Below, one piece after another: positions 3,780-13,008 of a stretch of 21,558 nucleotides of DNA; the stretch's first letter is position 1, and every line of letters starts with the position of its first letter. The translations under genes were made by a program, and so were the position numbers. Source of the DNA: a virus; IMG/VR virus record IMGVR_UViG_3300031973_000529, positions 1 through 21,558 of that record; one strand, given 5' to 3'. The notes beneath the pieces are model-generated. The model did not search any database, was not told where the DNA came from, and worked only from the letters and a program-made list of their open reading frames with translations.

Positions 3780-3859
3780 AATTTACTCTTGTTTAAAATA
3801 TTTTAAAAACACAAACTATTAGTTTGTATATTCCTATAAATTTACTCTTGTTTAAAATA
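3780..3859. repeat. 21-bp direct repeat pair
   Basis: Identical 21-base units at 3780-3800 and 3839-3859; identity breaks at the next base on the right (T versus C). The downstream minus-strand copy immediately precedes the holin start codon. Confidence 0.85.
3811..3827. repeat. 17-bp dyad (operator- or hairpin-like)
   Basis: ACAAACTA (3811-3818), one central base, then TAGTTTGT (3820-3827), a perfect 8-base inverted repeat. On the minus strand it is followed by GTTTTT, so as RNA it could act as a short attenuator hairpin; as DNA it could be a protein-binding dyad. Confidence 0.6.
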
Positions 3860-3923
3860 CATGGGTAATTAATACCCTTGTTATAAAATTAAATTATACC
3901 CATAATGATATAATATAACCTAA

Positions 3924-4040
3924 TTACCTAAAAATTATACCCGATATGATATAAACTAAATGAACAAACCAAGTACATAATACTAATAACTTTGGATATT
4001 TTACACAGTCTGTTCTTATGATTGCTCCCATAATAAACAT
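3924..4040 (-). CDS. Possible small membrane peptide in the lysis cassette (38 aa)
   Basis: The frame from ATG (4040-4038) to TAA (3926-3924) encodes 38 residues starting MFIMGAIIRTDC, with a hydrophobic span LLVLCTWFVHLVYIISGIIF near the C-terminus. The frame stays open upstream into the end of the endolysin gene, where a TTG could also serve as start; an AAGAGGA stretch lies about 14 bases before the ATG. It sits between the endolysin and the 3TM holin, where small lysis regulators are common. No homologue comes to mind and codon evidence is limited, so it could be a chance frame. Confidence 0.35.
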   Translation of the reverse strand: MFIMGAIIRTDCVKYPKLLVLCTWFVHLVYIISGIIFR

Positions 4041-4060
4041 AATTGTATGAAATAATCCTC

Positions 4061-4384
4061 TTAATAAGTCCAAATTACGTTTTGTGATTTATCTAAATCT
4101 AAATCAACGTGAATAAATGTATCTGCTATTCCTATACGGCTAAATCCAACTGCTAATAAAGCATCTAATATTAAAAATCGTGTTCTACTATCTTTTGCTT
4201 TTATATCTACTGCTAATCCTTTTATATGGCTTGAAGTAGGGTTTTTAATACTTTCCGGATGTCCTGGGCTTCTATAAGCAGAATTTATAATAAAAGGTAT
4301 TCCAGCGTATTCTCTTGCCTCGTCTAATTTAGCAAGAAAATCTAAATTCATATTTTCCTCTATATTTTTAAAGTATTTACTCAT
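4061..4384 (-). CDS. Endolysin, peptidase M15 family
   Basis: A compact 107-aa single-domain M15 (Peptidase_M15_3-like) enzyme. The zinc-site pattern is clear: SAYRSPGHP (about residues 35-43), then SSHIKGLAVDIKA giving H53 and D60, and FIHVDLD giving H92 with D94 next to it. These enzymes cleave peptide cross-links in peptidoglycan (D-Ala-D-Ala or L-Ala-D-Glu peptidases). There is no signal peptide and no separate cell-wall-binding domain, so export depends on a holin. Its ATG overlaps the stop of the upstream one-span holin-like gene (ATGA, 4381-4384), and the 3TM holin lies downstream, forming a lysis cassette. The length is at the short end for the family. Confidence 0.9.
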   Translation of the reverse strand: MSKYFKNIEENMNLDFLAKLDEAREYAGIPFIINSAYRSPGHPESIKNPTSSHIKGLAVDIKAKDSRTRFLILDALLAVGFSRIGIADTFIHVDLDLDKSQNVIWTY

Positions 4385-4533
4385 TCTTTTTCTGATAGTT
4401 TAATAATCTTCAAAACAGTATAAACAATAGTAACTATTAATAATGTTAATTTTAACCAATTTTCAACATTTGTAAAACTTACTGAAAACGCAGCAAAGTT
4501 TATAAATCCTATTTTTAAATCATTAATGTCCAT
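4381..4533 (-). CDS. One-span holin-like protein (50 aa)
   Basis: ATG at 4533-4531 to TGA at 4383-4381 encodes 50 residues: MDINDLKIGFINFAAFSVSF, then a single hydrophobic helix at about 29-45 (LTLLIVTIVYTVLKII), and a charged tail KLSEKE. The stop overlaps the endolysin start as ATGA, a strong sign of coupled translation. Small one-span proteins directly before an endolysin are typical class III-type holins or holin partners; an N-terminal N-x-x-W motif before the span and a Y-x-x-x-K at its end are common in such phage peptides. A second, larger holin candidate lies at 3336-3779, so this may be a co-holin or antiholin. Confidence 0.65.
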   Translation of the reverse strand: MDINDLKIGFINFAAFSVSFTNVENWLKLTLLIVTIVYTVLKIIKLSEKE

Positions 4534-4544
4534 AATATATGATT

Positions 4545-4778
4545 TTATAACTCATTTTGTTCATCGGATTCAAGAAATGGATAAATATTATTATTATTTA
4601 AAACTTCTAGCCAAATTTGTTCATCCTCATAAAAATCCATTTCATTCCAGGGTGAATCCATTGTTTGAGTTGGTGTAACTGAGCCATAAGTATGTATTTC
4701 AGTTCTATTATTATTCCAACCTATAAACCAAGTTTCTATTTCCGGTTTGTTTAATCCTGTTCCTTTTAAATTTTCCAT
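4545..4778 (-). CDS. Small unknown acidic protein after the tail fibre gene
   Basis: A 77-aa, Asn/Glu-rich, acidic protein with several Trp residues (WFIGWNNN, SPWNEMDFY, EQIWLEVL). It has no signal, membrane span or recognised domain. It starts 14 bases after the stop of the DUF285 repeat protein and is followed 11 bases later by the lysis genes. Its place directly after the presumed receptor-binding gene suggests a chaperone or accessory for that protein, or a small virion component, but this is inference from position only. Confidence 0.65.
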   Translation of the reverse strand: MENLKGTGLNKPEIETWFIGWNNNRTEIHTYGSVTPTQTMDSPWNEMDFYEDEQIWLEVLNNNNIYPFLESDEQNEL

Positions 4779-4792
4779 TTTATATATATATA

Positions 4793-6523
4793 TTATACTA
4801 AACCACCATCAGTAATAGTCCACCCAAAACCGCCGGAGCTTACTGGGGTTGTTAGTTTATTTCTAGATGCAGAGCCAGCAGTTGTGTATTGAGATTCACC
4901 AAAATGAATACTTAAATTAGTTGGCGTTGTGTGATATGTTTCATTTGCAAAAGCATTTAAAATATTATCATAAACAGCTAGTGGAAATTTTGGCTCATAT
5001 CCATCATAAGAACTCATAAAAGCAAAAGCAAACAAAACATTTGACATATTCCATTTTTCAATATTTGTTGAAAAATTAGACACATCTGTTCCTTGAAACA
5101 TTCCTTGAATATTTGTCATGCTACTAGTATCCCAATCTGAAAGATCCAAAGAAGAAAGAGGATTGTGTGCGAAAGCAAATCTAGCTTGAGTAACATTTGA
5201 AACGTCCCAATTAGAAACTTCAATAATTCCGCCTGTTTCATTTATGTTTCTAAACATGTAATTTATATTAGTAGCTCCGCTAGTATCCCATAAATTTAAA
5301 TTAGCTTCAAATCTAATCGCATTTTCAAACATAGATGACATATTTTCTATGTTAGAAGTTGTAGAATATGTATTAGTTTCCCAACTGTTTAAAAGTTGAT
5401 TAAATGATGTTGCATTTTTAAACATTTGAGATGTTCCAATTACATTACTAACATTCCATAAACTTAAATCTTGATTAAATGATGTTGCACCTCTAAACAT
5501 AGCAAACATATTAATTACATTGCCTGTATTCCAATTATTTAAAGGTTGATTAAATGATGTTGCATTATCAAAAACATAAACCATACTAGTTACATTACTT
5601 ACATCCCATGCATTTATATTTTGATTAAATGATGTGGCATCTTTAAACATGCTTGAAATTTTAGTAATGTTTTTTGTATCCCATTTATTAATATTATTTA
5701 TAAATAAATTTGAAGTATTAGAGCCGGCATTTTCAAACATTGAAAGTAAATTTGTAACATTAGATAAATCCGGAACATCTTGAGAGTTACAATTATATAA
5801 ATTTATGCAGTTTTTAAAAGCACTATTCATGCTTGTCCACTGTATGATACCCCAGTTATTTATTGAAATAAGATTATTTGGAGTTGTGCCAAATGCTGAC
5901 ATATTTATTCTTGGGAAAATTCCATTAATTTTTACTAAATAATCACCAGGAACAGAATAAGTATGTGATAAATTTAAATTACCAGTAACAGTTTGATTAC
6001 TATTATCACCCCAGTCAACCCTAAAATTATATATTTCACTTGAATCTAATCCAATAACAATAGTTTCATTATTAGTTGTTGTTCTCCAAGTCGTTATAAA
6101 TGATGTTTCATTTGGTTTACCGTATCCAACAATAGAAGCGTTAAAACTTATAAAATCGTCAATACTTGAACTGTCTGATAATTCTGTTATAAATCCCTTT
6201 CCACTTTCAACAAATGTATTATCAATATCTTCAGATTTCCATTCTATTAAAGTTCTATTTCTTTTTAACTCTTTTAATCTGTCAAAAGAAACTTTAGTTG
6301 TATCACCACCAGTAAGAAAACTTGTTTTAATTACTAAACCCTCAAAAGATATATTATAGCTTTGTGTTGTTGGCGTTGATGTTGCCCAGCCAGCATTATC
6401 TCTAGTAGTTGTATTTAACATTTCAACAGTTTCGCTAAAAGAATCGCCTGTTAAACAGCCAATCGGTAAAAATTCGCCATTAATTTTTATATATAAAATC
6501 CTATTTTCACCGTTTATAAACAT
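4793..6523 (-). CDS. Tail-tube-like domain fused to PKD-like and DUF285/BspA repeats (probable receptor-binding tail protein)
   Basis: A 576-aa chimera. Residues 1 to about 138 are paralogous to the tail tube protein at 10938-11375: shared LPIGCLT (19-25), SFEG-VIKT (59-67), an FD-x-L segment, and GKGFITEL (108-115) before the last strand. A PKD-like beta domain follows (about 142-205, FRVDWGDNSN and HTYSVPGDYLVKI). Residues about 215-505 are DUF285/BspA-type repeats of about 25 residues (ATSFNQ-x-LN-x-W followed by x-NV-x-x-M-x-x-MF). The end (about 517-576) is the conserved cap HFGESQYTTAGSA ... GWTITDGG. DUF285 proteins are surface adhesins in bacteria. Here the tail-tube module could anchor the repeats on the tail, so a host-recognition or tail-decoration role is inferred. 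It has its own TATATTTG box four bases before ATG. Confidence 0.85.
   Translation of the reverse strand: MFINGENRILYIKINGEFLPIGCLTGDSFSETVEMLNTTTRDNAGWATSTPTTQSYNISFEGLVIKTSFLTGGDTTKVSFDRLKELKRNRTLIEWKSEDIDNTFVESGKGFITELSDSSSIDDFISFNASIVGYGKPNETSFITTWRTTTNNETIVIGLDSSEIYNFRVDWGDNSNQTVTGNLNLSHTYSVPGDYLVKINGIFPRINMSAFGTTPNNLISINNWGIIQWTSMNSAFKNCINLYNCNSQDVPDLSNVTNLLSMFENAGSNTSNLFINNINKWDTKNITKISSMFKDATSFNQNINAWDVSNVTSMVYVFDNATSFNQPLNNWNTGNVINMFAMFRGATSFNQDLSLWNVSNVIGTSQMFKNATSFNQLLNSWETNTYSTTSNIENMSSMFENAIRFEANLNLWDTSGATNINYMFRNINETGGIIEVSNWDVSNVTQARFAFAHNPLSSLDLSDWDTSSMTNIQGMFQGTDVSNFSTNIEKWNMSNVLFAFAFMSSYDGYEPKFPLAVYDNILNAFANETYHTTPTNLSIHFGESQYTTAGSASRNKLTTPVSSGGFGWTITDGGLV
5396..5639 (-). repeat. 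75-bp periodic repeat in the DUF285 region
   Basis: The 19-mer TTGATTAAATGATGTTGCA (plus strand) occurs at 5396-5414, 5471-5489 and 5546-5564 exactly, and at 5621-5639 with one change, each 75 bases apart. It encodes ATSFNQ on the minus strand. The sequence between copies varies more, while degenerate copies of the protein repeat continue on both sides. Confidence 0.9.
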
Positions 6524-6578: not shown

Positions 6579-8501
6579 CTACCCTTTAATTGTTGGTTCT
6601 ACTACATTACCATAGTCAAGTGTTAATTGATAATCAATATCACTGTATGTTGAATCCGGTAATTGATTGTTCAAAATTTGTTTTAGTTTTAGCTTTGTAA
6701 TATTTGTTTCTGCGTTATAATCGTACTCTATTGGCATAAATAAAACATTGTCAATACCGTCAATAGATATTACACTTAAATAGTCAATATAGCCAAAAAC
6801 ATCACCGCTAAATACTCGTAAAGGTTTTGCGTACATTTTCATTCTTTCCTCTCCCATTATTTGAAGGATTGGTTTATACTCATGGTCTCCTCTTGTCCAT
6901 GTTTCTGTGGGCGTTGTTTCATCACTTTTATAAATAGTACCTACATAAATGTCTGAATCATTATCACCATTAAATACTTCTTTTGTTTTTTCTATTTTTG
7001 TAGATGGTTTGTCTATTATTTGAAAAGTGTGATTTTCTCCTTTTAAGTTTGGATCATTACCATTTAAAGTAATTTGTACTTCTTTTATTTCAGCATTTCC
7101 CGAAGGTGTAAAATATTGATTTCCTCCTGTATGTATTATTATTTGTAAATCACCAGCCTCGGGTGTTTCTTCTGCGTTTAATCTAATACTTGATGTTTGT
7201 TCTTTCGACGTTAATACAACCCTTGAAAAACCTTCTATATATTCAACACTATTTGACCAACTTGCGTTGTATGTTCTATTAATTCCAAAAGGAACTGCAT
7301 TGTTTATTGTTTCGTTAGTTAAATCTTCTGTTTTTAAATAATAAGTATTTGAAGTTCCTACAAGTTTCACAGAGAATCTAGTAAAAGAACTTAGTACATC
7401 AGTAAAATATGCAAAGTAAAATGATAAAAAATTATTTTGTGCTATATTTAATGGCGTTTGTAATTCTAATACATCAGTTATAGTACTTTCAGAATCTATA
7501 AAGACCCCTTTTCTATCTAATGGAAAAGTTAAATAAGTATTATTTAATATATTGTATCCAGGTATGTCTGTATCTGAAACACTTTCTAAATAATTATTTT
7601 CTATCAAAGATTGTACTAAACCATATTTATAATTTATACGATAAGCACCAATTGAGGAATCTATTGTTAACTGTTGGTTTTTATTTACATGATGCGGATA
7701 AAAATTATTTATTTGACTACCTAAATTCTGACTAAATTCAACTGTTACTTTGGGAGTAGGTAATGCAACTCCTTCACTATCATAAGCAAAAAAATCTAAA
7801 CTAGTATCGTCAAATAATTCATTTGATTTATAAATATACCAGCTTCCTTCATACTGAGTAATAGAACAACCAAATATTTCTAAAATAGAACGTAAAACCT
7901 CTTCACAGTTCATTATAGTAGTATTATTATCGTCTTTTATAAATCTATTTGAGTTAAAATAAGTATTTACTAAAACGTTTGTGTTTGCAGTCATTCCAGT
8001 ATAATAAATATAAATACTAGTGTAAATATTTTGCTCTAAATTTGTACGTTTTAAACAGTTTGTAATTATTTCTAAAGCTGACTGTTTACCGCTAAATGTT
8101 AACCCAGTTGCATTTTCTACATAAGATAAATTATTCAAAAAACCTAATCCGTCAGTACAATCTAATGAAATTATCCATTTATCTTCAACAAAGCTTTCAA
8201 TTAAACCCTCCGGAGAAAGCCATCCGTAAAACATTAATGTACTATCTCTGTAATATTTTACAGAATATTCTCTTTCGTTTTCAGAATACAAATCATTAAA
8301 AGATAGTAAACTATTAGCTTCTAAGTCTATTTTTAACCCTCCACCTCTTATTGCTTCTAGTGTATCCTTTGTATTTGCTTTTGTTAAAGATAAACTACCT
8401 TGAACCTCTGTTGAATCACCTACAAAAGTATCATTATAAATTTCACATTTGTGTAAAATGTTTTGAACGTCTGTAAACTCAAAATAATATTTTAATGCCA
8501 T
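6579..8501 (-). CDS. Tail-tip/baseplate structural protein (unassigned)
   Basis: A 640-aa, beta-rich protein directly downstream of the tape measure gene (four-base gap), where siphoviruses encode the distal tail or tail-tip hub. The N-terminal half (LSLTKANTKDTLEAIRGGG; EREYSVKYYRDSTLMFYGWL; IISLDCTDGLGFLNNL) resembles the tail-associated structural proteins seen after tape measures in Bacteroidota phages. I see no catalytic motif, lysozyme or peptidase domain, and no collagen-like repeats. The rest reads as alternating beta strands (ITKLKLKQIL, YQLTLDYGNV near the end). The likely role is to close the tail tube and hold the fibre-like product of the next gene; this is inferred from position. 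Its first 60 residues are rich in Thr and Asp and carry no signal peptide. Confidence 0.7.
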   Translation of the reverse strand: MALKYYFEFTDVQNILHKCEIYNDTFVGDSTEVQGSLSLTKANTKDTLEAIRGGGLKIDLEANSLLSFNDLYSENEREYSVKYYRDSTLMFYGWLSPEGLIESFVEDKWIISLDCTDGLGFLNNLSYVENATGLTFSGKQSALEIITNCLKRTNLEQNIYTSIYIYYTGMTANTNVLVNTYFNSNRFIKDDNNTTIMNCEEVLRSILEIFGCSITQYEGSWYIYKSNELFDDTSLDFFAYDSEGVALPTPKVTVEFSQNLGSQINNFYPHHVNKNQQLTIDSSIGAYRINYKYGLVQSLIENNYLESVSDTDIPGYNILNNTYLTFPLDRKGVFIDSESTITDVLELQTPLNIAQNNFLSFYFAYFTDVLSSFTRFSVKLVGTSNTYYLKTEDLTNETINNAVPFGINRTYNASWSNSVEYIEGFSRVVLTSKEQTSSIRLNAEETPEAGDLQIIIHTGGNQYFTPSGNAEIKEVQITLNGNDPNLKGENHTFQIIDKPSTKIEKTKEVFNGDNDSDIYVGTIYKSDETTPTETWTRGDHEYKPILQIMGEERMKMYAKPLRVFSGDVFGYIDYLSVISIDGIDNVLFMPIEYDYNAETNITKLKLKQILNNQLPDSTYSDIDYQLTLDYGNVVEPTIKG

Positions 8502-8505
8502 ATTT

Positions 8506-10260
8506 TTATGTTAATGATAAAGAACCTCCTAAATTTCTATTTCTTTGTAGTGTATTACTTAAAACACCTACTAATTTTGTTCCTTGTATTTCAAATACTA
8601 CATTTTGCATTCCGCCACCGCTTGAGCTACTAAAAGAACTTCCACCACTTGGGCTAAATGTATTTGTATTACTTGAAACACCTCCACCGCCTCCAGCACT
8701 TCCACCACTTGACGACCCTATTTTAGCAGCTCCAGCACTAAATGCAGAACCTAAAGCAACTAAAGCAACACCAGCCCCGATAGCAACAGCTGGGTTCAAA
8801 GTTGCTAAAGCAAGTTTAATTTTCTTAATACCTATACCCACACCAATAGCTAAAGTTCCTAATTGTGTTAACATTCCACCAATACCTCCTAATAATGCTC
8901 GTCCAAGCCCTTGTGCTAAATTACCTCCATTTACTAATGCGTCCCCAATTGCTCTACCTATTCCCGAAAAAGTTTGAACTAAAGAATTCTGTATAATATT
9001 ATTTGCAGCAGCATTTAAGTTTTTCAATTTTTCAATCATTTCAAGTTTTTTCTCTTCAAATGCTTTTAGATTGTAATAAGCCTCCCAGTCAATTGATTCC
9101 CATTCCCATTCTGAATTATCAGCTAATATTATTGGATCCGTTTCAATTAATTCTTGAAACTTATTTTTTTCGTCTTTATATGTTTCTTTAAAATCTACAA
9201 ATACATTTTTTAATTCTTCATTAATTGTTTCGGGAGCTAATCCACCTAATGCGGTAATATTAGTTTCTAAATCTATATTAGTTAACTCTAAAGTTTGTTT
9301 TTCAGCTATTAATTTTAATTCTTCTTTTCTTAATTTATTTAATTTTTCAGCCTCTTTAGCTAATCCCGCTGATTTTCTTTTTCTATTTGATGCGGTATCT
9401 TTTGCGTCTAAAGCTATTTTTTGGTCAGCTATTTCATTTTGTTTAGTTAATAATTGAGTTTCCAAAACCAGTAATTTCTCACTGTTTTTAACAATCATGT
9501 TAGACGCCGCAGTAGCTTTAGCGCGTTTTATTATAGATGTTGTTAAGGTGTCGTATGTAGTTGCTAAACCTCCGTTTAATATCTTTTCATCAGACATATT
9601 CTTTAAATAGTCCGGATATTTTTTTCTCAATGCTTCAATAGCACCTTTACGTTTGTTTATTGATAAATTTGTATTCTCTATTTGAGATTTCAATAACCCT
9701 AAAGTAATTAACTCTTTTTGTGCGCTTTGTTCGCCTTTTAAATTTGCTCTACTTACAGATTCTAAACCATTAACATAATCGTCTAATGCTTGAGTTAACT
9801 TTTCTTGCTCTTCTCTTAATTCTTTGGCTTTATCCTTAGTTTTAAATAATTTATCACCAAAAACTAACAGTAAAGAAGTTGCGACAGAAATAGCTAATGA
9901 AATCCCTCCAAAACCTTTTAAGTCTCTAAGCATTGCGTTTAAAGCACCCTTTGCGCTTCCTGTCTTGTTTTTTAAATATCCAAATTGTTCCGTTAAGTTA
10001 GTAATGTTATTCGAAACCCCCATTATTCCAAAAGGCGCATCTTGAACAGTTCTACTAAAAGCTGTCATTGCAGAATTACCACTAATTGCACTTTTACCTA
10101 GTTTATCAATACCTTTAGCAGAAGAAGATGTACTTTTTCCTAGTTTACTATTAGTTTTTTCAGCAGATTTCTCTAAACTATTAAATTCGCCTTTTGCCTT
10201 TGCTAATTCCTTCTGTAACTTGTCAATCCTTGCGGATATTTCAACACTTAACTCTGCCAT
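8506..10260 (-). CDS. Tape measure protein
   Basis: A 584-aa protein with typical tape measure layout. An N-terminal coiled coil (ARIDKLQKELAKAKGEFNSLEKSAEK) is followed by NITNLTEQFGYLKNKTGSAKGAL. A hydrophobic segment lies at about 116-137 (GGISLAISVATSLLLVFGD), then long charged helices. A Gly/Ala-rich hydrophobic stretch spans 445-510 (LGRALLGGIGGMLTQLG, AIGAGVALVALGSAFSAG). A Gly/Ser linker and a C-terminal VFEIQGTKLVGVL segment complete it. Such proteins set tail length and enter the host envelope during DNA ejection. At about 0.15 nm per helical residue the length predicts a tail under 100 nm. It follows the G/GT chaperones with a one-base TAATG overlap at 10260-10262. Confidence 0.93.
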   Translation of the reverse strand: MAELSVEISARIDKLQKELAKAKGEFNSLEKSAEKTNSKLGKSTSSSAKGIDKLGKSAISGNSAMTAFSRTVQDAPFGIMGVSNNITNLTEQFGYLKNKTGSAKGALNAMLRDLKGFGGISLAISVATSLLLVFGDKLFKTKDKAKELREEQEKLTQALDDYVNGLESVSRANLKGEQSAQKELITLGLLKSQIENTNLSINKRKGAIEALRKKYPDYLKNMSDEKILNGGLATTYDTLTTSIIKRAKATAASNMIVKNSEKLLVLETQLLTKQNEIADQKIALDAKDTASNRKRKSAGLAKEAEKLNKLRKEELKLIAEKQTLELTNIDLETNITALGGLAPETINEELKNVFVDFKETYKDEKNKFQELIETDPIILADNSEWEWESIDWEAYYNLKAFEEKKLEMIEKLKNLNAAANNIIQNSLVQTFSGIGRAIGDALVNGGNLAQGLGRALLGGIGGMLTQLGTLAIGVGIGIKKIKLALATLNPAVAIGAGVALVALGSAFSAGAAKIGSSSGGSAGGGGGVSSNTNTFSPSGGSSFSSSSGGGMQNVVFEIQGTKLVGVLSNTLQRNRNLGGSLSLT

Positions 10261-10577
10261 TACTTTTTGTTATTATATTGTTGTTGTGCTTTTAAAATAG
10301 CGTTCTTTTGTAAATCACTTAAACCTTTTGGTTTTCCCTCTCCTAAATAACTTTTTCGTATTTCGTTTATCCTTTTTTTCTTGTCCTTTCCGTCAATAAA
10401 TCCAGCAATCAAAACATTTGTTGACAATTCAGCTATCTTTAACCATTGGTTTTTCTGAATCCTATTGTACGCAAAAAGGCGAAGTTGAAACTCCGCCCAT
10501 GTCATATTACAATACTGTTCATAAGAACAGTTAAATTCACCTAAACAAACAGAAACAACGTCAACCTCCCAGTTTAT
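10260..10577 (-). CDS. Tail assembly chaperone T segment, made as a G-T fusion by -1 frameshift
   Basis: The -1 frame is open without stops from the A10 run at the end of the G gene (codon ATA at 10577) through INWEVDVVSV, CLGEFNCSYEQYC and NMTWAEFQLRLFAYNR to the stop at 10260-10262, adding about 105 residues to G for a fusion of about 225 residues. An internal ATG (10505) could give an 81-aa free protein, but the 24 conserved-looking codons upstream of it argue for the fusion. The segment W-E-V-D ... E-F-N-C-S ... M-T-W-A-E-F-Q-L is the kind of sequence found in T parts. G and GT coat the tape measure before tail tube polymerisation in lambda-like phages. The C-terminus is basic. Confidence 0.8.
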   Translation of the reverse strand: MNWEVDVVSVCLGEFNCSYEQYCNMTWAEFQLRLFAYNRIQKNQWLKIAELSTNVLIAGFIDGKDKKKRINEIRKSYLGEGKPKGLSDLQKNAILKAQQQYNNKK

Positions 10578-10588
10578 TTTTTTTTTAC
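10574..10588 (-). other. Programmed -1 ribosomal frameshift site (A10 slippery run)
   Basis: The G gene ends GTA AAA AAA AAA TAA, giving ten consecutive A on the minus strand (10577-10586) directly before the stop. Sliding back one base reads on as AAA ATA AAC TGG. GGGAGG follows six bases after the run, and a perfect 7-bp hairpin (10514-10520 with 10525-10531, 4-base loop) lies about 45 bases downstream; whether either stimulates slippage is unknown. Confidence 0.75.
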
Positions 10589-10936
10589 TTCATTATCTTC
10601 AACCCCTTCAGTCTTTGGTAAACTGTCAATAATAGACTGTAAAAATGCCTCAACAAATTTAGCACTTTCTGAGCCGTCTTTAAAATGTCCTGTTTCTTCT
10701 ATTAAGTCAGACATTTCAAACGGTTTTAAATCAACTTTTTTACCTTGTCTTTTGCTGTTATGCAAATAACTTTTATACATTAAATTTGGGATAAATGTAT
10801 AAGGTTCAGAATTAATATTGTCAAAAATACCTTGTAAATCTGTATTTTCTTCTTTTAGAAATTCACCTAAAAAAGATAGCCCAAAAAAGAATTCCAATTC
10901 TTTACCGTTAAAGTTTAGTTTTATTTTATTTGTCAT
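10574..10936 (-). CDS. Tail assembly chaperone (G-like)
   Basis: A 120-aa protein just upstream of the tape measure region and one base after the tail tube stop. It starts with a beta hairpin (IKLNFNGKELEFFFGLSFLGEFL) and continues helical (YTFIPNLMYKSYLHNSKRQGKK, SAKFVEAFLQSIIDSL), ending in an acidic linker and the lysine codons of the slippery site. The fold pattern, position and frameshift signal fit the lambda G/HK97 gp14-type tail chaperone, although sequence identity in this group is always low. The 0-frame product ends KTEGVEDNEVKKK; a fraction of ribosomes should shift to make the G-T form. Confidence 0.8.
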   Translation of the reverse strand: MTNKIKLNFNGKELEFFFGLSFLGEFLKEENTDLQGIFDNINSEPYTFIPNLMYKSYLHNSKRQGKKVDLKPFEMSDLIEETGHFKDGSESAKFVEAFLQSIIDSLPKTEGVEDNEVKKK

Positions 10937-10937
10937 A

Positions 10938-11375
10938 TTATTTCGGATCTACTTCAGTAATTAAACCACTATTTTGAATCGTTCCGCTAAAAGTAGCAAA
11001 TTCATCACCAGCAGCAGCAGTAATTTCCAAGTCAGTTAGAATTCCTGTACCATAATAAGCAACTGGGCTAGTTTGGTCAGTTGACATTCTCCAAAATTGA
11101 CGAACTCCGTTAGATTCATTAATAAAATCTAGTAAAGCATCAAAGTTTGTTTTTTCCGCCTCTGTTTTAATGTAAGTAGCTTCGAAAGAAATCTCTGAAC
11201 TAGTAGAACCACCATAACGAATAACTCTGCCTGGGCTACATTTGGTTTGTGCTTCAATTACGTTTCGAGTAATTGACAAAGAATTTGATGTTAAACATCC
11301 GATTGGTAAATAATCCGTATCAGTATCACTATAAATTGATAGTATTACAGCATCACCTTTTATAAAAGTACTCAT
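10938..11375 (-). CDS. Major tail tube protein
   Basis: A 145-aa protein, beta-rich and without Cys pairs in a motif, located between the tail terminator-like gene and the tail chaperones, the standard site of the major tail protein. Recognisable blocks are LPIGCLTSNSLSI (23-35), SFEATYIKT (63-71), a central RQFWRMSTD and the end GTGILTDLEIT ... FATFSGTIQNSG, the usual last strands of TP901-1/Phage_tail_2-type tube subunits. Hexamers stack to form the tail tube. It has its own promoter-like box (TATATTTG, 11401-11408), consistent with high expression of a many-copy protein. A paralogous copy forms the N-terminus of the protein at 4793-6523. Confidence 0.85.
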   Translation of the reverse strand: MSTFIKGDAVILSIYSDTDTDYLPIGCLTSNSLSITRNVIEAQTKCSPGRVIRYGGSTSSEISFEATYIKTEAEKTNFDALLDFINESNGVRQFWRMSTDQTSPVAYYGTGILTDLEITAAAGDEFATFSGTIQNSGLITEVDPK

Positions 11376-11877: not shown

Positions 11878-12394
11878 ATTTTTTGGTTAACCTTTTTAAT
11901 AACTCTTTTAAATCTTTTAAATATTGTTTTCGACCCTTTACAAATGCCGGATATAAATACGGTTGAGGTTCTTGACCTTTTCGCAATATACTCATAAAAA
12001 TTGGATATGCTGCGATTTCCGGTATTCCTTTATTTTTACACCAATCTTTAATACCTTGTAAACCTTGCTCAAATGATCCGCCTTTTTTACCTTTAAACTG
12101 TGATGCGACATCTTGTAATTCTGCCGGAACTCTTACCTTTGCACCCGTTCCAAATTCTACATAAGCACCATAAGGTGAATTTACTACTACTTTATAATCT
12201 GCTTCACCTACTTTAGTAAAAATAATACTTTGCGCTAACTTTCCTAAATTCTTTGGTGCAAATGCTTTTGCGTCTGCTACTATATCCATTGATGAGATTT
12301 TTGTAATTTCTTCAACTTCTTTTTTAGATTCTGAACCAAACTTTTCTAAATCCTTTAATACTTTTGTTAGTCCTTTAATAGTTTTGTCAGACAT
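11870..12394 (-). CDS. HK97 gp10-like head-tail/tail completion protein
   Basis: A 174-aa protein of the HK97-gp10_like family. It has the hallmark N-terminal helices (KDLEKFGSESKKEVEEI), the DIVADAKAFAPKNLGKLAQSI block at 37-57 (A-P-x-x-T/L-G-x-L pattern), and VNSPYGAYVEFGTG at 71-84, followed by a basic C-terminal helix with YLYPAFVKGRKQYLKDL. Family members help join tails to heads. It shares a one-base TAATG overlap with the upstream gene and is closely coupled to the downstream tail terminator-like gene. Confidence 0.9.
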   Translation of the reverse strand: MSDKTIKGLTKVLKDLEKFGSESKKEVEEITKISSMDIVADAKAFAPKNLGKLAQSIIFTKVGEADYKVVVNSPYGAYVEFGTGAKVRVPAELQDVASQFKGKKGGSFEQGLQGIKDWCKNKGIPEIAAYPIFMSILRKGQEPQPYLYPAFVKGRKQYLKDLKELLKRLTKKYD

Positions 12395-13008
12395 TACAAT
12401 CCGCTTGAAATCCTATGAATAGATATTTTTCTTTTAGAAATTGTTATAGTTCCACTATCAGTTTTTAGAAATATTTGACCTCCATTTGTTTTAAATGAAT
12501 CTAACGTAAAATAAGGAAAAGCAATACTTACTCTATAAGGCGCAATTTTTTCTAATCCTACAATTCTTTCAACTTCTATAATTGTTGAAGTTACTCCCCC
12601 TCCAATATCTAAAATAACATCTAAACCTTTAGGAGATCCAAGCTTAGATTGTATTTCTAAATCTAATCTCATGGTATAAGAATCACCAATATTTATAGCG
12701 TTTATTTTATTATTTGTAACATCCCATAATTCAGAAACACCTCTTATTTGCAAAGGAAGATATAAACTATTTGAACTAGTTGCAGATCCATCAATTAACA
12801 ACTTACTTTCTGATGTTGTTATTGTTTGAGTTGCTGGTGATGTTTCACTGTCAATATAAGACCCCCAACCAAGTATTTCAGATTGTTCTTTAACAAATTC
12901 TGCATTATTAACCAAGTTTGTTCCTACTCTTACAGCAGTATTTGCCGCAGTTTCTGTTTCGTTTTTTATAACGTTTGCGTTTGTAATTATTTGTTCTATT
13001 GTTGCCAT
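12394..13008 (-). CDS. Fibre- or decoration-like structural protein in the connector operon
   Basis: A 204-aa protein without a match I can name. An N-terminal helix (ATIEQIITNANVIKNETETAANTAVRVG) resembles the trimerising or anchoring segments at the start of tail fibre and head fibre proteins in Bacteroidota phages (N-E-T ... A-A-N-T-A-x-R-V-G). The rest is a predicted beta sandwich (SNSLYLPLQIRGVSELW, YTMRLDLEIQSKL, VILDIGGGVTSTIIEVERI, GGQIFLKTDSGTITISKRK), like a lectin or jelly-roll head domain. It lies between the head closure and gp10-like genes, joined on both sides by TAATG overlaps, so it is made together with connector proteins. This suggests a neck or head decoration or whisker rather than a tail-tip fibre. 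Function unproven. Confidence 0.6.
   Translation of the reverse strand: MATIEQIITNANVIKNETETAANTAVRVGTNLVNNAEFVKEQSEILGWGSYIDSETSPATQTITTSESKLLIDGSATSSNSLYLPLQIRGVSELWDVTNNKINAINIGDSYTMRLDLEIQSKLGSPKGLDVILDIGGGVTSTIIEVERIVGLEKIAPYRVSIAFPYFTLDSFKTNGGQIFLKTDSGTITISKRKISIHRISSGL

Follow-up and report, generated by a model that had tools for sequence, protein, structure and literature searches.

The protein encoded at 4793-6523 on the minus strand of the window (the whole stretch of DNA that was analysed, 21,558 nt of IMG/VR virus record IMGVR_UViG_3300031973_000529, positions 1 to 21,558) joins a predicted tail-tube domain to a repeat module of bacterial type, and with this ring-fused repeat domain the flavobacterial-type phage probably grabs its host. 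We put at roughly 60% the probability that a ring at the tail tip bears some six PKD-BspA arms, through which the phage attaches to its host and which replace separate fibres. The gene is a single uninterrupted ATG open reading frame of 576 aa, and its product consists, from N to C terminus, of a tail-tube domain, a PKD-like domain, approximately ten DUF285/BspA repeats, and an ending with GWTITDGG (residues 567-574) (Table 1). A first-pass annotation, made from the sequence alone, had described this architecture, and it is borne out by a strong match for DUF285 and a weak one for PKD_4.

Table 1. Features of the window referred to in the text, with window coordinates.
Feature	Position	Strand	Evidence
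Second tube-type domain, residues 1-137; predicted distal-tail ring domain	6113..6523	-	BLASTP/HMM to canonical tube, AF2 and Foldseek
PKD-like domain, residues ~138-205	5909..6112	-	PKD_4 E 2e-4, below cut-off
DUF285/BspA repeats, residues ~206-520	4964..5908	-	PF03382 E 3.7e-60, 5 matches, repeat spacing
C-terminal cap, ends SGGFGWTITDGGLV and stop	4793..4963	-	Like ending in L094, L098
Small ORF, 77 aa, in place of relatives' fibre genes	4545..4778	-	No family match
Tail hub protein, 640 aa, Mu gp44/T4 gp27-like, CBM-like part	6579..8501	-	AF2 and Foldseek
Tape measure protein, 584 aa	8506..10260	-	phrog_167 E 1.7e-5, position
Canonical tail tube protein, 145 aa, paralogue of tube-type domain	10938..11375	-	phrog_1407 E 1.1e-22; Phage_tail_2 over cut-off

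The N-terminus had also been claimed to share sequence blocks with the 145-aa tube protein, and all of the named blocks are present in both proteins: LPIGCLT (residues 19-25 of the 576-aa protein and 23-29 of the tube protein), SFExxxIKT (59-67 and 63-71), and GxGxxTxL (108-115 and 109-116). Residues 1-137 align to the tube protein with 31% identity over 140 columns (BLASTP, E 9e-13), and the local alignment score is 124, whereas shuffled sequences (n=2000) score 30 on average and at most 54; judged by alignment, the similarity lies well outside what chance produces. The phrog_1407 family, 'major tail protein', is matched by both proteins (E 2.7e-26 for the 576-aa protein), and Phage_tail_2 is matched by the tube protein over its cut-off (E 7e-7), by the 576-aa protein just under it (E 2.7e-4, 21.5 bits vs 23.8), and at 46 bits by L280, a member of the family formed by residues 1-137 and their relatives (second tubes). 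Profile comparison of the second-tube and canonical tube families gives an E of 1.7e-27.

The tube fold that the first-pass annotation expected of this domain is also what is predicted. An AF2 model of residues 1-137, which used an alignment of 46 relatives, is of moderate confidence (pLDDT 74.9, pTM 0.65), and its best solved matches in Foldseek, monocin MttP (TM 0.70), lambda gpV, and the GTA tube, are tube subunits and not distal-tail proteins. Sequence searches of the PDB with the whole 576-aa protein and with the second-tube profile returned nothing convincing, and the canonical-tube profile returned the monocin tube 8qhs (E 1.6e-4). The tube-domain model also matches two BFVD entries that may be further extended forms, A0A6J7WFB0 (651 aa) and A0A6J5NU57 (293 aa).

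Beyond the tube domain the window protein carries a 439-aa extension that resembles modules of Flavobacteriales proteins, found in 97 of the 398 genomes sampled; the best identity of the BspA module to these proteins is 49% over 234 residues. The PKD-like part (SFITTWRTT...) is the start of the module common to Flavobacteriales proteins, many of the genome matches start at residues 139-141, and the alignments place the joining of the PKD-BspA module at a domain boundary, with a clean junction. The repeat unit is about 25 aa long and nine W[DNE]x motifs are present; endings comparable to WTITDGG occur in BspA proteins of L094 and L098. G+C content is similar in the tube part and the extension (0.27-0.30, with a GC3 of 0.16 in both), so composition gives no mark of recent foreign origin. 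DUF285 proteins that have no tube domain occur in other phages. An adhesive function of the PKD and DUF285 domains would be expected from their family and position, although the presence of such domains does not prove it. Another IMG/VR contig, 99.9% identical to the window across 7142 bases and different in sequence elsewhere, also carries the gene, there with one nucleotide changed and an identical protein. Because this second, slightly different contig holds the same gene, an assembly chimera is unlikely and an artefactual fusion was rejected. No near DNA matches to the window were found in phage records.

Relatives of residues 1-137 are found in Flavobacterium phage 11b, Cellulophaga phage phi10:1, many IMG/VR contigs, and a few Chryseobacterium-group genomes. 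The family sample (best 80 per query) comprises 140 distinct proteins, 134 of them complete, from 348 loci. Among the matches listed, all but four of the 134 distinct complete proteins are 134-180 aa long, and the longer four are those of L293 and L347 (208 aa each), L280 (334 aa), and the window (576 aa). The window protein is the only one of the 134 distinct complete members listed to contain BspA repeats, and no further BspA fusion was found among the 140 distinct proteins listed from the 348 loci. Since nearly all second-tube relatives are short and standalone, the C-terminal fusion is derived in the window phage. The proteins of L293 and L347 (4001-4627) are extended C-terminally by about 70 aa, and that of L280 (3992-4996) has a C-terminal extension with an FN3-like and another domain; this FN3-bearing member suggests that the ring C-terminus is a general plug-in site. 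A canonical tube protein with an extra C-terminal domain of about 90 aa, possibly Ig-like, is encoded in L038 (469-1173).

A quick tree built from few columns separates canonical from second tubes as two clades (99% support) and places the window domain as sister (97%) to the standalone protein of L007, to which it is 87% identical. Second tubes carry the signature TTTRDNxGW vs TKCxPG in canonical tubes. The window domain keeps 35 of the 37 domain positions that are strongly conserved in the standalone family, and two further departures of the window protein lie within the short tail, whose place the extension takes. On this sequence evidence, the second tube-type protein is an ancient paralogue found across flavobacterial phages and separate from the canonical tube. 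The two clades reject a recent duplication of the tube gene in the window phage. Both genes are present in every one of the 23 loci that extend 6.5 kb or more upstream, the canonical tube gene preceding the second tube by 4.1-6.0 kb. The earlier proposal of a duplicated tube subunit turned into an adhesin anchor is thus retained as to a tube-type anchor with a repeat adhesin and abandoned as to a private, recent copy of the phage's own tube.

The second-tube gene keeps consistent company. A hub gene lies no more than 150 nt upstream in 101 of 136 loci, and in the exceptions listed it is mostly about 2.2 kb away; in L083, the one exception inspected, portal-like and MuF-like genes on the opposite strand (3789-5895) lie between the hub and second-tube genes. 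An open reading frame with a common fibre N-terminal module follows within 1.3 kb downstream in 109 of the 125 testable loci. The window and L006, both partial genomes, gave no match to this module at E<=1; the same search found it in 10 of 12 other loci, hits that are partly by construction because the model was built from those fibre N-termini, and the informative result is therefore the absence in the window. The module is missing from the two remaining loci, L095 and L201; L095 belongs to another kind of phage, and the L201 sequence stops short of the tip genes. As the window is a partial genome, a fibre gene could be located elsewhere in the phage. In L025 (2350-5228) tandem second-tube genes are each followed by their own fibre-type gene, and in L195 (13079-16255) two second tubes in a row are followed by one fibre gene. 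Tandem second-tube genes are also present in L196 (13028-13911).

By analogy with lambda gpM and the RcGTA distal tail protein, the second tube is assigned to a distal-tail ring that may work like Dit. Dit genes normally sit between the tape measure and hub genes. The window gene does not lie between the tape measure and hub/Tal genes but after the hub gene, so the 576-aa protein is likened to Dit and not classed as a member. Residues 1-137 would assemble into a ring of tube fold, probably hexameric, that sits between the canonical tail tube and the hub encoded by the preceding gene, its putative docking partner. Where relatives have a short C-terminal tail and separately encoded fibres, this phage would have a PKD spacer and a BspA/DUF285 repeat domain radiating from the tip and binding a surface structure of the flavobacterial host, and the PKD-BspA module would stand in for the fibre genes missing at the locus. 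We infer the tip position, ring formation, copy number, and receptor binding in this scheme. It is a tentative further thought that a bacterial-type surface adhesin module has been fused to the tail-tip ring, so that one gene replaces adaptor and fibre and host self-adhesion is perhaps mimicked; as the module occurs in many copies in flavobacteria, binding may go via contacts normal for host adhesins.

The first-pass annotation had left two placements side by side, a terminal ring and occasional decorations along the tube. The ring fits the gene order better and is preferred because the gene lies mostly beside the hub and before fibre genes, because no separate distal-tail gene is seen, and no gene at all lies, between tape measure and hub in the window, and because the adhesin is in one continuous frame with no frameshift product. 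Decoration would mean that the protein is a minor subunit of the tube, inserted at intervals so that the adhesin stands out along the tail, comparable to SPP1 gp17.1* and TpeX of 936 phages; this is unlikely, even though the homology of the 576-aa protein to the canonical tube is clear and SPP1, lambda, and 936 phages have described decorations along the tube (PMC6669499, PMC8718954), since second tubes form a separate old clade with its own signature and the SPP1 and TpeX forms arise by frameshift.

It is distinctly improbable that the second tube protein is only a peripheral fibre adaptor that forms no through-channel ring. The adjacency of its gene to fibre genes and the tandem arrangements of L025 and L195 agree with such an adaptor, but the tube-fold proteins of solved assemblies are rings, and no other distal-tail gene was seen that could occupy the interval between tape measure and hub. 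Last, the RefSeq record of Flavobacterium phage 11b labels the second copy (PHG11b_44) 'major tail protein'; on that label the major tube would be built of the 576-aa protein or its relatives, with the 145-aa protein as the minor form. This exchange of roles is very hard to credit: a major tube gene usually lies where the 145-aa gene does, next to tail terminator (phrog_176) and chaperone-type genes, and a tube made of adhesin-bearing 576-aa subunits is unlikely. The distal-tail ring with PKD-BspA arms is the reading followed below.

Several neighbouring genes merit description. The AF2 model of the hub protein (pLDDT 83.9) matches Mu gp44, the MuSo2 43-kDa tail protein, VgrG, and CBM4 in Foldseek, and the modelled CBM4 match suggests an inserted sugar-binding domain. 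A fibre-like 204-aa protein is encoded at 12394-13008 (minus strand) between head-tail joining and HK97-gp10-like genes; like the CBM-like part of the hub, it is a further candidate for binding. A relative of the 204-aa protein (E 7e-46) is encoded downstream of the second tube in L235 (13537-14244), and the same neck position in L201 (757-3080) holds two different genes, of 247 aa and 525 aa (Laminin_G_3 domain). Binding modules seem to move between neck and tip. The 120-aa open reading frame at 10574-10936 (minus strand) contains a run of A (near 10574-10586) before its stop, where a frame shift opens into an 81-aa open reading frame (10260-10505, minus strand), a pair that resembles the programmed frameshift of lambda-type tail assembly chaperones.

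If the reading is correct, the repeat adhesin is carried by a tail ring protein and not by a fibre, in a lineage whose members almost all have ring and fibre as separate proteins. The widespread second tube-type protein of flavobacterial phages, labelled only 'major tail protein' or 'phage tail protein' in the 11b and phi10:1 records, is a candidate distal-tail ring, and the clean domain boundary, the close standalone protein of L007, and the extended protein of L280 offer a natural experiment on swaps of receptor-binding modules. The first-pass annotation knew of no described example of the architecture. The principle is not new, as extended tube proteins and adhesin-bearing distal-tail proteins, including evolved Dit, are already described (PMC6669499, PMC7296036), but a BspA version was not found in the literature searched, and searches on 11b tail proteins and on BspA with tail tube found nothing.

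Among known systems, lambda gpM has a topology identical to that of gpV and makes up a ring between tube and tip (PMC10721106), and the RcGTA distal tail protein is tube-like, with an insertion domain that may bind sugars (PMC7296036). The window protein resembles both in having a predicted tube-fold subunit; their ring sits between the tube and a trimeric hub, whereas the window gene comes after the hub gene and its product is still recognisably paralogous in sequence to the tube protein. The RcGTA module is an internal insertion, putatively sugar-binding, and that of the window is a C-terminal PKD-BspA extension. In 936-type lactococcal phages, distal-tail and tube proteins can both carry binding modules, and evolved Dit and MTP/TpeX share with the window protein the combination of a tail ring protein and a host-binding module, here putative (PMC6669499). 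Their module is a BppA-type carbohydrate-binding one and that of the window is PKD plus DUF285/BspA and not of BppA type, so only an analogous role is proposed; furthermore, TpeX arises by frameshift and the window extension lies in one frame. The standalone second tubes (11b gp44, phi10:1 gp089, L007, and L009) have the same domain, at up to 87% identity, and the same post-hub position, but end in a short tail, mostly followed by separate fibre genes, where the window has its long extension and no fibre module nearby. The BspA/DUF285 proteins of Flavobacteriales share the module of PKD and ~25-aa repeats at up to 49% identity; those are bacterial reading frames, many of them large (to ~2800 aa), whereas in the window the module is carried by a phage tail protein.
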